Source: Nonlabens xylanidelens
GTDB lineage: Bacteria > Bacteroidota > Bacteroidia > Flavobacteriales > Flavobacteriaceae
Assembly (NCBI RefSeq): GCF_002934445.1
Contig: NZ_PTJE01000001.1
Coordinates: 930,001-994,000 of the forward strand
Length of the DNA stretch: 64,000 nt
Direction: 5' to 3'
This document shows, one piece after another, positions 36,294 through 40,433 of the stretch. The notes under the pieces were generated by a model that was not told where the DNA came from, did no database searches, and saw only the letters and a list, made by a program, of their open reading frames with translations. The first letter of the stretch is position 1. Each line of letters begins with the position of its first letter. The position numbers and the translations under genes are program-made.

Positions 36294-36399
36294 AGAACAT
36301 TACAATTACCCTACTATAACGATAGAGTAGTAAATATTCCTTAAAAGTTCTTGAAAACTAATGGATTTATAAAAATCTATTTTACATTAGCTGCTTATT

Positions 36400-36468
36400 A
36401 TGATGACAAATATTTATTTCTGGTATGGATTTTACTTCTATTTTATAGAGGGAAAGGCTGTATTGTAA
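36400..36468 (+). CDS. Aromatic amino acid leader peptide
   Basis: A 22-codon frame too short for usual gene finders: MMTNI, then YFWYGFYFYF, then IEGKAVL and TAA. Codons 6-15 are Tyr, Phe, Trp, Tyr, Gly, Phe, Tyr, Phe, Tyr, Phe, so nine of ten are aromatic. A terminator and a competing pairing follow before pheA at 36532. This is the layout of ribosome-mediated attenuation leaders such as those of enterobacterial pheA and trp. A ribosome short of Phe, Tyr or Trp tRNA would stall here. The stop lies 64 bp before the pheA start. Confidence 0.85.
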   Translation: MMTNIYFWYGFYFYFIEGKAVL

Positions 36469-36523
36469 TAATTAAACAATTTATATAACAACAAAGCCTT
36501 GATCTAATCAAGGCTTTTTTTTT
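36454..36523 (+). promoter_or_regulatory. Transcription attenuator of the aromatic operon
   Basis: Terminator: perfect 11-bp stem (36493-36503 with 36507-36517), loop CTA and T-run to 36523. Antiterminator: AAGGCT (36454-36459) can pair with AGCCTT (36495-36500), which destroys the terminator stem. An inner ATTGT/ACAAT pair (36462-36466 with 36476-36480) would support it. A ribosome stalled on the aromatic codons leaves AAGGCT free; one reaching the stop at 36466 covers it. Confidence 0.8.
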
Positions 36524-36531
36524 ACTCAAAA

Positions 36532-37344
36532 ATGAAAGTAGCTATTCAAGGTATTAAAGGTTCTTATCACCATCAGGTGGCTGTCGAGCTATGTGGTGAT
36601 GTGGATTTATTAGAATGTGATTCATTTGACCAACTAGTAATAGCTGTTTCAAACGGTCAGGTGGATAAAGGAATTATGGCTATAGGTAATTCTATTGCCG
36701 GTAGCATATTACCCAATTACAGTTTGATTAGAGAACAAAAACTACATATAACAGGAGAGTATTATTTAAATATAGAGCACCAGTTAATGGCGCTGCCAGG
36801 TCAGGATATTACAGATATAATAGAGGTGCAATCTCATCCTATGGCTTTGTTGCAATGCAAGCCATATTTTAGAAACCACGAACAAATTAAACTGGTAGAA
36901 ACAGATGACACAGCGGCTGCCGCTTTTAGAATTGCGCAAAGTAATAAACGTGGTATTGCGGCAATAGCGTCTGCACACGCGGCACAATTGTATGGATTAG
37001 AAATTATATCAGGAGATATTCAAGAAGTAAAGAAAAACGCAACCAGATTTGTGGTCGTAGAGAAATCAAATGGCTTTGTAAAAGAAGTGAATAAAGCGAC
37101 TATTAATTTTACTACCGGACACCAGCCAGGTAGTCTGGGAGAAATTTTAATCACTTTAGGTAAACTAGATATTAATGTTTCAAAAATTCAATCCATACCT
37201 ATTGTAGAAAAGCCGTTCTTATTTTCATTTGTCGCAGATCTTGAATTTAAACGAATGGGTCAGTTTGAAGAAGCAAAATTAGAACTAGGTATTCTAGTAG
37301 AATCACTAGTTATTTTAGGAATATATAAATCACACTCGCTATGA
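36532..37344 (+). CDS. pheA: Prephenate dehydratase
   Basis: Converts prephenate to phenylpyruvate, the last unique step toward phenylalanine, 270 residues. The catalytic domain shows VAIQGIKGSYHHQVA, GIMAIGNSIAGSI, VQSHPMALLQC and the TRF motif KKNATRFVVVE (about 165). The C-terminal ACT domain (about 188-265) has the Gly loop HQPGSLGEIL; the usual ESRP regulatory motif is replaced by QSIP. It lacks the chorismate mutase domain, which is instead fused to the DAHP synthase at the end of the operon. It overlaps the next gene by 4 bp and is controlled by the attenuator just upstream. Confidence 0.93.
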   Translation: MKVAIQGIKGSYHHQVAVELCGDVDLLECDSFDQLVIAVSNGQVDKGIMAIGNSIAGSILPNYSLIREQKLHITGEYYLNIEHQLMALPGQDITDIIEVQSHPMALLQCKPYFRNHEQIKLVETDDTAAAAFRIAQSNKRGIAAIASAHAAQLYGLEIISGDIQEVKKNATRFVVVEKSNGFVKEVNKATINFTTGHQPGSLGEILITLGKLDINVSKIQSIPIVEKPFLFSFVADLEFKRMGQFEEAKLELGILVESLVILGIYKSHSL

Positions 37345-38504
37345 TACAACCAGCAAAGAGACTCGATAGCGTCCAAGAATATTATTTTGCGACAAAGTTG
37401 CGCGAGGTAAGAGGTTTTATAAATGAAGGTAAACCTGTTATAAATGCAGGTATAGGTAGTCCAGACTTATTACCGCCACCTAATGTGGTGCCGGCTCTTA
37501 TAGAAGCGGTTCAAGATGCTAGAGCACATGGTTACCAGAGCTATTTAGGATTGCCAGAATTAAGAAATGCCATGGCTGGCTTTTATAAAAAGCAATATCA
37601 AGTAATAGTAAATCCAGAGTCAGAAGTAGTTCCTTTAATGGGAAGTAAAGAAGGTATTTTGCATATTTCTATGGCTTTTTTAAATCCAGGAGATGAGGTT
37701 TTAATTCCAGATCCTGGTTATCCTACTTATGCAAGTGCGACTAGATTATGTGAGGCGACTGCTGTAACTTATAATTTAACAGCATCTCAAAACTGGATGC
37801 CAGATTTTGAAGCGTTAGAAAAACTCGATCTTTCTAGAGTAAAGATCATGTGGACTAACTACCCTCATATGCCTACAGGCGCTGCTGGGTCGTTAACTGT
37901 TTTTAAAAAATTAGTAGCATTTGCAAGAAAGCATAACATTCTAATAGTTAATGATAATCCATACAGCTGTATAGGTTATGATAATAAAATAAGTATCCAT
38001 CAAATAGATGGTGCTATGGATGTTGCTCTAGAATTAAATTCTATTAGTAAAACTTATAACATGCCTGGGTGGAGAGTAGGTATGCTTACTGGTGCTGCTG
38101 CATTACTTAAAGAGGTTCTTAAAGTAAAGACTAACATGGATAGCGGTATGTTTTATGGTGTGCAAAAAGGAGCAATTGCTGCTTTGCAAACAGATAATAG
38201 CTGGTTAAATACTCAAAATGAAATCTATAAAAAACGTAGAGCTGCAACTATAAAACTTGCAACAAGTTTAAGCTTACAACCGCAGGAACAAGATGGCGGT
38301 TTATTCTTATGGTGTAAACTACCAGATGGGCAGTCAGATGATAAAGCATTTGTAGACCATTTATTACATAATAATGATATCTTCATCGCTCCAGGAAGTA
38401 TTTTTGGTAAAAACGGAAAAGGCTATGTGCGTTTTTCTCTTTGTGTAGAAGAAAAGCAAGTAGAAGAAATGATATTAAGAGTGGCTAATAATGTAGAGGT
38501 ATGA
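37341..38504 (+). CDS. PLP-dependent class I/II aminotransferase
   Basis: A 387-residue fold-type I aminotransferase. Features: GIGSPDLLPPPNVV, YQSYLGLPELRNAM, the aromatic-stacking PDPGYPTYAS, NDNPYSCIGYD, the PLP-lysine block ELNSISKTYNMPGWRVGM (Lys in SKTYN, about 236) and the C-terminal Arg in GYVRFSLCV. Placed between pheA and tyrA, it most likely transaminates phenylpyruvate and 4-hydroxyphenylpyruvate to Phe and Tyr. Prephenate is a possible substrate instead. It overlaps both neighbours by 4 bp. Confidence 0.9.
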   Translation: MIQPAKRLDSVQEYYFATKLREVRGFINEGKPVINAGIGSPDLLPPPNVVPALIEAVQDARAHGYQSYLGLPELRNAMAGFYKKQYQVIVNPESEVVPLMGSKEGILHISMAFLNPGDEVLIPDPGYPTYASATRLCEATAVTYNLTASQNWMPDFEALEKLDLSRVKIMWTNYPHMPTGAAGSLTVFKKLVAFARKHNILIVNDNPYSCIGYDNKISIHQIDGAMDVALELNSISKTYNMPGWRVGMLTGAAALLKEVLKVKTNMDSGMFYGVQKGAIAALQTDNSWLNTQNEIYKKRRAATIKLATSLSLQPQEQDGGLFLWCKLPDGQSDDKAFVDHLLHNNDIFIAPGSIFGKNGKGYVRFSLCVEEKQVEEMILRVANNVEV

Positions 38505-39361
38505 AAAATATATTTCTAATAGGGACAGGACTAATAGGTGGCTCAATCCTTAAAGACTTGCGCAACCATTATCCAGAGTCGACATTATATGGTATTGATA
38601 AAAATCCAGAACATGCTTTAAAGGCAAAAAGCAATAAAATTATCGATCACGTTGCACAGATAGAAGATGTTAAAGATGCACAGTTAGTCATCGTTTCTAT
38701 ACCAGTAGATGTGGCACTAAAAGTTTTACCTCAAGTACTCGACCTAGTAAATGAAGAAGCATTAGTTATAGATGTAGGATCTACTAAAGAGGCTATTTGT
38801 AAATCGGTAGAAGAGCATAAGAATAGAAGACAGTTTCTAGCCGCACATCCTATAGCAGGTACTGAGTTTTCTGGACCAGATGCAGCTATTCATGATTTGT
38901 TTAAGAACAAAACAATGATAGTTTGTGAGGTAGAAAAAACAGCTTTTAAATTGCAAGAAAGCGCAATAGCACTTTTTGAGAAATTAAAAATGAGAGTGCG
39001 TTACATGACGCCGGCGGCACATGATAAACATATCGCTTATGTCTCTCATTTATCGCATATATCTAGCTTTATGTTAGGGAAAACAGTGATACAAGAAGAG
39101 GTGAATGAGCGTGATATCTTTGATCTTGCAGGTAGTGGTTTTGAAAGCACAGTACGATTAGCAAAAAGTTCTCCGGCCATGTGGACACCTATCTTTGCAC
39201 AAAATAAGGAACACGTTCTAGCTAGTCTAGATGGATATATTGAGAATTTATCTCGCTTTCGCGAAAGCGTAAAAAACAACGATCATAACGCCATATTTAA
39301 AGATATGGAACAAACAAATAGAATAAAAACGATACTGAAAGGAATAGAAAATGGAAAATAA
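38501..39361 (+). CDS. tyrA: Prephenate dehydrogenase
   Basis: NAD(P)-dependent oxidative decarboxylation of prephenate to 4-hydroxyphenylpyruvate on the Tyr branch, 286 residues. The Rossmann motif is FLIGTGLIGGSILKDL at the N-terminus, then VIDVGSTKEAI, the catalytic His region LAAHPIAGTEFSGPD, and the helical dimer domain with HLSHISSFMLGK and DLAGSGFESTVRLAKSSPAMW. Near residue 253 the helix reads LSRFRESVKNN, encoded by a perfect interspersed palindrome with no apparent length change. It overlaps the downstream gene by 11 bp. Confidence 0.93.
   Translation: MKNIFLIGTGLIGGSILKDLRNHYPESTLYGIDKNPEHALKAKSNKIIDHVAQIEDVKDAQLVIVSIPVDVALKVLPQVLDLVNEEALVIDVGSTKEAICKSVEEHKNRRQFLAAHPIAGTEFSGPDAAIHDLFKNKTMIVCEVEKTAFKLQESAIALFEKLKMRVRYMTPAAHDKHIAYVSHLSHISSFMLGKTVIQEEVNERDIFDLAGSGFESTVRLAKSSPAMWTPIFAQNKEHVLASLDGYIENLSRFRESVKNNDHNAIFKDMEQTNRIKTILKGIENGK
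39254..39269. repeat. Interspersed palindrome, copy 12
   Basis: Perfect core inside tyrA, read as SRFRES in a C-terminal helix. Confidence 0.95.
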
Positions 39362-40433
39362 AAAAGAATTTAGGAGTTGGTTAGATGCTCACAAATTAGA
39401 GCATCCGATAGTAATCGCTGGGCCATGCAGCGCAGAGACAGAAGAACAAGTACTTAAAATTGCACACCAGTTAAAAGACACTGATGTGACTTACTTGCGT
39501 GCTGGTATATGGAAACCTAGAACACGTCCAGGTAACTTTGAAGGTGTAGGTGCGATAGGTCTTAAATGGTTGCAAAAAGCCAAAGCAGAAACAGGACTTT
39601 TAACCGCAACTGAGGTAGCAAACCGTGCTCACGTAGAACTAGCACTAGAACATGATATAGATTTATTATGGATAGGAGCAAGGTCTACTGTAAGTCCTTT
39701 TATAGTTCAAGAAATAGCAGATGCTCTTGAGGGAACGGATAAAGTGGTACTGGTTAAGAATCCAGTAAATCCAGATCTAGCACTATGGATAGGTGCTGTA
39801 GAGCGCTTTCATACGGCAAATATTAAAAACCTAGGTGTTATCCATAGAGGTTTTTCTACCTATGATAAGTCAAAGTACCGTAATAATCCAGAATGGCAAA
39901 TAGCTGTCGATTTCCAGACACGCTATCCAGATATACCTTTAATATGTGACCCATCACACATTACTGGTAAAAGAGATATGATACTAGAAGTATCGCAAAC
40001 GGCACTAGATTTAAACTTTGACGGTTTAATGATAGAGACGCATTACGATCCAGATAATGCATGGAGTGATGCAGCACAGCAGGTAACGCCAGATTCTCTT
40101 ATCCAAATATTCAAGGATTTACGCATAAGAAAAGAGCAAGATGATGAAGTAGGTTACCAGTCTAAGTTAGGTGTTCTTAGAGCCCAAATCGATATTATAG
40201 ATAATTCTATTATTGAGACATTAGGTAAAAGAATGAAAACTGCCGATGCTATAGGGGAACTTAAAAAAGAGCGTAACGTTGCTGTTTTACAATCTAAAAG
40301 ATGGAATGAGATTTTAGGTAAAATGATTCTCGCTGGAGAAGAGCAAGGTTTAAGTGAAGAGTTTATACTGCGTGTTTTTAAAGCAGTGCACCAAGAATCT
40401 ATTGTGCATCAAGAAAAGGTGATTAATAATTAA
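39351..40433 (+). CDS. Bifunctional DAHP synthase/chorismate mutase
   Basis: A 360-residue fusion: an N-terminal KDPG/AroG-like 3-deoxy-7-phosphoheptulonate synthase (about 15-260: IVIAGPCSAETEEQ, LRAGIWKPRTRPG, LLTATEVANRAHVE, LWIGARS, VLVKNPVNPDLALW, LICDPSHITGKRD) and a C-terminal AroQ chorismate mutase (about 270-355: LRAQIDIIDNSIIETLGKRM, AIGELKKE). It holds the first committed step of the shikimate pathway and the branch to prephenate, so this operon contains both ends of the route to Phe/Tyr. Such fusions are typical of Bacteroidota. A terminator follows. Confidence 0.93.
   Translation: MENKKEFRSWLDAHKLEHPIVIAGPCSAETEEQVLKIAHQLKDTDVTYLRAGIWKPRTRPGNFEGVGAIGLKWLQKAKAETGLLTATEVANRAHVELALEHDIDLLWIGARSTVSPFIVQEIADALEGTDKVVLVKNPVNPDLALWIGAVERFHTANIKNLGVIHRGFSTYDKSKYRNNPEWQIAVDFQTRYPDIPLICDPSHITGKRDMILEVSQTALDLNFDGLMIETHYDPDNAWSDAAQQVTPDSLIQIFKDLRIRKEQDDEVGYQSKLGVLRAQIDIIDNSIIETLGKRMKTADAIGELKKERNVAVLQSKRWNEILGKMILAGEEQGLSEEFILRVFKAVHQESIVHQEKVINN

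Follow-up and report, generated by a model that had tools for sequence, protein, structure and literature searches.

We conclude with high confidence that the pheA operon of Nonlabens xylanidelens, a member of the Flavobacteriaceae, is preceded by a ribosome-mediated transcription attenuator, a mechanism well known from textbooks. In the window, the 64,000-nucleotide stretch of DNA that was analysed here, a leader frame of 22 codons holds nine aromatic residues at codons 6–15 and is followed by an intrinsic terminator of 11 bp with a 3-nt loop and a T-run, which both its sequence and its covariation place between the leader ORF and pheA. The motif AAGGCT in the last codons of the leader pairs with AGCCTT in the 5' arm of the hairpin, excluding the terminator (Table 1). 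These elements had been proposed in a first-pass annotation made from the letters alone, and its coordinates and codon count, the length and position of the stem and the alternative pairing all proved right. The operon annotation likewise agrees with the earlier assignment of the downstream genes to the synthesis of Phe and Tyr and to DAHP synthase, and the end products correspond to the amino acids that the leader codons specify. Upstream of the leader lies gldA, divergent on the opposite strand, so the terminator does not serve to end a co-directional upstream gene. The case is built on the parts, their conservation, their covariation and the constraint on the codons, all of which were observed, and a folding model adds the geometry of the switch.

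Table 1. Features of the leader region, the pheA operon and the repeated palindrome, with positions in the window
Feature	Position	Strand	Remark
Predicted −7 promoter box	36383..36390	+	TACATTAG; TAnnTTTG type of Bacteroidota
Predicted 5' UTR of leader RNA	36395..36399	+	~5 nt; predicted start site
Leader peptide ORF	36400..36468	+	MMTNIYFWYGFYFYFIEGKAVL; 22 codons
Regulatory codons 6–15	36415..36444	+	Tyr Phe Trp Tyr Gly Phe Tyr Phe Tyr Phe
Strand 2, antiterminator 5' arm	36454..36459	+	AAGGCT; within last codons of leader ORF
Leader ORF stop codon	36466..36468	+	
Terminator hairpin	36493..36517	+	11 bp, 3-nt loop, T-run after
Strand 3, terminator 5' arm	36493..36503	+	
Antiterminator 3' arm	36495..36500	+	AGCCTT; within strand 3
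Strand 4, terminator 3' arm	36507..36517	+	
T-run of intrinsic terminator	36515..36523	+	
pheA, prephenate dehydratase	36532..37344	+	First operon gene
Class I/II aminotransferase	37341..38504	+	
tyrA, prephenate dehydrogenase	38501..39361	+	
aroF-type DAHP synthase fused to chorismate mutase	39351..40433	+	
Palindrome CTTTCGCGAAAG, 15 copies	3589, 11324, 13911, 15131, 18924, 22774, 25017, 27689, 31599, 36280, 39256, 41885, 47373, 56086, 60452		

According to the mechanism that we propose, RNA polymerase would start a few bases ahead of the leader ORF and a ribosome would follow it. With charged tRNA-Phe, tRNA-Tyr (and tRNA-Trp) plentiful, the ribosome would reach the stop codon and cover strand 2; strand 3 would then pair with strand 4, and transcription would terminate in the T-run ahead of pheA. 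When one of the aromatic amino acids runs low, stalling of the ribosome within codons 6–15 would leave strand 2 free. Pairing of the free strand 2 with strand 3 would make the terminator come too late, and the Phe/Tyr/DAHP-synthase operon would be transcribed. For this locus we infer where transcription starts, that the leader is translated, and that termination occurs in vivo and responds to amino acids.

A chance origin of the aromatic leader ORF is excluded. Nine Phe, Tyr or Trp residues within ten represent the maximum among the 700 ATG-started frames of 10–60 amino acids in the window. Dinucleotide shuffling of the window (n = 30) yielded 27,003 frames, none of which reached nine aromatics and one of which reached eight, and when the local intergenic stretch was shuffled 5,000 times, none reached nine and three reached eight. 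Dense aromatic frames do turn up by chance, in 27 of 2,180 shuffles of upstream DNA from the family and in 9 of 919 non-leader tiles of 29 family loci, about 1% in either case; a single leader alone would be weaker evidence than the whole set. A simple scan of a 1-kb stretch found three terminator-like sites versus 0.5 in shuffles, two of the three being the pheA-leader hairpin read on both strands. The leader RNA as a whole folds better than 200 shuffles (z = −3.3), mostly owing to the terminator.

To follow the leader among relatives, we sampled 199 Flavobacteriaceae genomes from 198 genera and found PheA in 178. The upstream DNA of 110 family PheA matches (30 search loci and 80 stretches) and of three further relatives gave 113 loci; one of these, L004, is titled 'uncultured Bacteroidetes bacterium', with its family unstated. 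An aromatic leader and a terminator lie at most 400 nt from pheA in 109 of the 113 loci, the terminators of L068, L072 and L090 having been located by eye. Relatives that keep the terminator and lack the aromatic codons, the pattern named beforehand as speaking against the attenuator, were thus not what the comparison of Flavobacteriaceae leaders returned. The 109 leaders are 16–28 residues long, of which 7–11 are aromatic. Three further loci (L059, L069 and L094) had passed for leaderless in a first scan until a covariance model found their leaders more distantly upstream, that of L059/L272 beyond an inserted ORF, and in L041 the leader was absent from the ~2 kb searched upstream. The ORF inserted between leader and pheA in genome G128 (MKTIPFEPSKYYHFFNRGNNKENIF..., L272:335-925) has no Pfam match at 1e-5; we presume that it resembles a REP-associated transposase.

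The covariance model was built from 62 leaders and matched 185 of the 199 family genomes at E ≤ 0.01, a count that includes the training loci and whose weakest members may be bare terminators. Among 19 leader-bearing stretches inspected, PheA lies downstream in 18 and the remaining one ends at its contig. The window genome has one strong match, of 91 bits; the next scores 34, and all others 34 bits or less. Genome G048 had appeared to bear two leader copies, but both sit at contig ends and are probably one locus split in assembly. The order pheA, aminotransferase, tyrA, DAHP synthase/chorismate mutase is found in 76 of the 80 loci with 4 kb of downstream DNA, and the shorter loci begin with pheA, aminotransferase and tyrA in 34 out of 34 cases.

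Within the genus, PheA-locus matches were obtained in 18 of 23 genomes, and all 16 congeners that have upstream DNA carry both leader and terminator. Over the whole analysis, four rows were dropped: L002, which is the same place as L006, two loci that start at contig edges (L206 and L218) and one locus without a recognisable core; L208 and L003 have an identical leader. The nearest named relatives of the window PheA are from an uncultured Nonlabens (91%) and N. ulvanivorans (71%), and the leader ATG at 36400 is homologous to the start used in congeners.

Beyond the family, 69 of 78 matched genomes remained and 40 loci were taken, mostly top-listed ones, with one shortened by a contig end. This sample was drawn within the GTDB class, which we take to be Bacteroidia. 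Scored for ATG-started frames in which seven or more of twelve residues are aromatic, 23 of the 40 loci were positive and the other 17 showed no aromatic leader; shuffling these stretches gave such a frame in 10 of 2,000 cases, and stretches that precede his and trp matches had one in 0 of 35. The earlier proposal that one leader answers to all three aromatic amino acids holds in part. Phe and Tyr codons are present in 109 of the 109 family-sample leaders, and on these sequences joint sensing of Phe and Tyr would be general in the loci seen, but Trp codons are present in only 71.

The RNA strands of terminator and antiterminator covary. In 62 aligned loci, 98.7% of the cells of the terminator stem are paired, and six of its nine pairs are altered on both sides; sliding the alignment as a control left 22.5–55.1% paired. 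MAFFT placed strand 2 in two registers, and antiterminator pairs were therefore counted on each locus's own duplex. Counted in this way over 108 loci, the antiterminator core is paired in 626 of 648 cells, position 4 being T-A in 57, C-G in 49 and T-G in 2, and the next position C-G in 96, T-A in 10 and T-G in 2. The strand 2 region pairs with its own strand 3 at −11.3 kcal/mol, versus −8.8 kcal/mol with the strand 3 of other loci. In most of the congeners shown, AAAGTCCTG is combined with CAGGACTTT (CGGGACTTT in one), and strand 2 usually contains GGAC. The window genome has AAAGCCTTG / CAAGGCTTT with AAGGCT, and N. ulvanivorans provides a G-U intermediate, AAAGTCTTG / CAAGACTTT with CAAGGC.

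Sequence comparison shows the aromatic codons to be under constraint at the level of the peptide. Across 521 close pairs of leaders, which overlap, and with 404 codons carrying more than one change left out, we counted 828 single-base differences in aromatic codons, comprising 474 silent changes, 263 swaps between aromatic residues and 91 losses. Loss of the aromatic residue thus accounts for 91 of 828 differences, as against 72% expected neutrally. This conservation through silent and aromatic-to-aromatic changes tells against the best of the alternatives, a constitutive partial terminator whose hairpin trims expression beside an aromatic ORF that is not translated for regulation, to which we assign a very low probability. 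The terminator is indeed the more stable structure, with a mean of −13.4 kcal/mol versus −11.3 kcal/mol for the antiterminator, as such a device would have it. However, the antiterminator arm changes together with the terminator, and the distance from the aromatic run to the start of strand 2 has a median of 11 nt (5–95%: 7–12; range 3–14), although strand 2 was sought over the whole stretch between the end of the run and the terminator, a median of 51 nt.

The aromatic core kept across the family would also suit a functional small protein or a trans-acting peptide, with attenuation as a secondary matter, and peTrpL in Sinorhizobium is reportedly a precedent for a leader peptide that acts in trans. 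We consider this explanation less probable again than the partial terminator. The C-terminal part of the peptide varies with the RNA pairing (RGTGLL, NETLYV and GKAVL are examples) and the core drifts among Phe, Tyr and Trp, both of which favour the reading of codons over a peptide fold; the drift is compatible with an added role of the peptide in trans, beside attenuation. Rfam, which presumably includes the Proteobacterial Phe leader family, was searched with seven leader-bearing loci and gave no match at E-values as high as 1, nor did any family match the window leader at the gathering threshold. A metabolite riboswitch or T-box that controls the terminator, with the ORF incidental, is the least likely of the three and close to negligible: a passage on F. 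psychrophilum does report a structured 5' element before pheA (PMC9723704), but besides the missing Rfam match the predicted RNA of ~128 nt consists almost entirely of ORF and terminator.

For the attenuator itself, we modelled the ribosome as a footprint under which base pairs are forbidden and applied this to the 109 loci. A ribosome placed on the aromatic run left strands 2 and 3 paired with a probability of 0.98; one placed at the stop codon lowered this to 0.02, and to below 0.2 in 107 of the 109 loci. Because strand 2 had been picked for its optimal duplex with strand 3, the model partly presupposes the high values on the run; the sharp drop past the run is free of this effect. An earlier metric that took any pairing of strand 3 gave 0.57 at the stop codon, with 21 of 109 loci below 0.3; it was blurred by AT-rich pairs and was therefore replaced by pairing with strand 2 only. 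In the window genome, the probability that strand 3 pairs with any upstream segment stayed at 0.82–0.85 up to the second-last aromatic codon, was 0.58 on the last one and 0.04 one codon later, and reached at most 0.25 further along the leader. Sequence, covariation and model together give an antiterminator that excludes the terminator and whose 5' arm a ribosome finishing the leader would cover. At full-length equilibrium the antiterminator was dominant in 0 of 109 loci. With the terminator the more stable of the two, the switch depends on timing, and folding leaves kinetics out.

When the ribosome was removed from the calculation, the probability of pairing between strands 2 and 3 was 0.99 in the window genome, with a mean of 0.68 and values above 0.5 in 76 of 109 loci. 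Other 5' ends gave much the same picture (mean 0.67; above 0.5 in 78 of 109). The corresponding values for the two E. coli controls were ~0.0003 for pheL, which is almost no antiterminator, and ~0.00001 for trpL; in hisL the same calculation detected no terminator. The model thus predicts read-through of the untranslated leader RNA, the opposite of the E. coli case. As long as strand 3 is still to be transcribed, strand 2 pairs upstream with a mean probability of 0.70 (above 0.5 in 97 of 109; 0.50 in the window genome), and the values for pheL and trpL are 0.77 and 0.96. In these models weak pairing between strands 1 and 2 exists in the flavobacterial leaders as well, and the difference from E. 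coli would lie in which pairing wins: in untranslated trpL upstream pairing keeps strand 2 occupied, whereas in Nonlabens the antiterminator prevails. In untranslated RNA of these leaders 1:2 pairing was not found to beat 2:3 pairing, as it does in the four-strand trpL subtype. A first test of the 1:2 hairpin had given a mean of −5.6 kcal/mol versus −4.9 kcal/mol for codon-shuffled leaders, but showed no signal in E. coli trpL and little in pheL. Being insensitive on these controls, it gave way to the pairing probabilities of the untranslated RNA.

A wider generalisation, which we regard as rather unlikely, is that Bacteroidota practise a 'default-on', three-strand attenuation. Leader ORFs would lie near the 5' end, with no Shine-Dalgarno sequence and no dominant 1:2 protector hairpin, immediate loading of the ribosome at the 5' end would take the place of a pause hairpin in synchronising ribosome and polymerase, and lost leader translation would turn the operon on and not off. 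The 5' distances behind this generalisation, all in Nonlabens, are ~5 nt for pheA and ~3 nt for his and trp.

Ahead of the leader ATG, a −7 box at full score is found in 100 of 109 loci versus 7% of shuffles. TTG lies 18 or 19 nt upstream of the box in 70 of 106 loci, and is absent at 18–19 nt in the window genome. The gap from box to ATG is 9 nt, the same in 16 of the 17 genus rows shown. The passage on start sites in F. psychrophilum puts the box at −12 to −5 (PMC9723704), which together with the 9-nt gap yields a 5' UTR of ~5 nt and a predicted start at 36395. Outside the genus, pheA gaps of 10 or 16–18 nt are the most frequent. In Nonlabens itself, the his and trp leaders mostly have gaps of 5–8 nt, corresponding to UTRs of ~1–4 nt, in a listing in which the script mis-assigned L158, L182 and L183; a window-wide check of promoter-to-start gaps covered three promoters only. 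In the F. psychrophilum study the median length of 5' UTRs is 24 nt, and 5.5% of mRNAs are leaderless (PMC9723704). With leaderless mRNAs this rare, efficient translation of a leader behind ~5 nt is not assured. In the start context of the 109 leaders, 82% have A at −3 and 66% have A at −6. The A at −3 fits the initiation signal of F. johnsoniae, in which A-3 is described as a positive determinant of initiation (PMC6847099).

Comparing the Nonlabens leader with known systems, E. coli pheL-pheA is alike in having a short ORF, a run of Phe codons and a terminator before pheA, and the method used here places its antiterminator 5' arm 8 nt past the last Phe codon. It differs in that Phe codons precede a fused chorismate mutase/prephenate dehydratase, whereas Phe, Tyr and, often in the family, Trp codons precede pheA, aminotransferase, tyrA and DAHP synthase/chorismate mutase in Nonlabens. 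In E. coli trpL the position of the ribosome selects antiterminator or terminator, and the Nonlabens pheA leader would share this logic.

The first-pass annotation had held the use of such a leader before this operon to be undescribed experimentally in a flavobacterium. Among the matches listed from open-licence literature we found no direct test of attenuation in Bacteroidota. Lopatovskaya et al. 2010 is said to be a comparative survey of attenuation, which may include Bacteroidetes cases. The novelty is nevertheless smaller than the annotation had put it: Guerin et al. 2021 describe, in their passage on F. psychrophilum, a structured conserved element before pheA and hisG that is common to other Flavobacteriaceae genera, and speak of 'strong clues' of leader-peptide attenuation in amino-acid operons (PMC9723704). 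Their pheA element, given in that passage as having no Rfam hit, is probably the same as the Nonlabens pheA leader, and the passages that deal with it give no codon, covariation or strand detail (PMC9723704). Leader-like sORFs are mentioned in a passage of Ryan et al. on B. thetaiotaomicron (PMC7366714), and the relevant portion of Naville and Gautheret has no ribosome-mediated attenuation known outside Proteobacteria and Actinobacteria before 2010. The attenuator is of a known kind, the pheA leader is new in detail, and the novelty is modest.

Leaders specific for other amino acids occur in the same genus. Each of 14 hisG loci (L156–L169) and 14 trpE loci (L173–L183 and L185–L187) has a His-run or Trp-run leader, with a terminator detected in 12 of 14 in either set; these leaders call for one amino acid each, whereas the pheA leader calls for several. 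In the window genome, hisG (L165) has the His-run leader MKTQNVHHHHFF... and trpE (L173) the WWW leader MKRTNHTWWWNNTAQQP, both followed by a hairpin with a T-run. At its end, this His-run leader reads FFYFPSGELKMY, in another frame than that of the sister genome G010 (FFTSRQAR), which suggests a small indel after the His run.

A separate observation concerns the palindrome CTTTCGCGAAAG, a genus-specific, highly iterated sequence that we take to be HIP1-like. The 64-kb window contains 15 copies where 0 are expected, 13 of which extend to CGCTTTCGCGAAAGCG. There are 685 copies in the window genome and 467–879 in each of 15 genus genomes (its own included), 0–1 in nine genomes from other families of the order, and a single match in the 80 stretches L035–L114. 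The spacing is more even than random, with a CV of 0.49 in the window and 0.81 over 94 sites of genome G493. Literature on Nonlabens palindromes held nothing apparently relevant among the matches listed.

The present analysis adds to the earlier reports the codons, the strand-by-strand covariation, the switch geometry, the spread over the class, and two unusual features that are predicted, the 5' end and the default state. For the Flavobacteriaceae, the Phe/Tyr/DAHP operon gains a candidate regulator and a predicted sign of its response. The presence of the aromatic leader in several families of the class would mean a coupling of ribosome and RNA polymerase tight enough for attenuation, in a phylum that lacks Shine-Dalgarno initiation and whose primary sigma factor is unusual. 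The aromatic leader would offer a natural reporter with which to measure this coupling.
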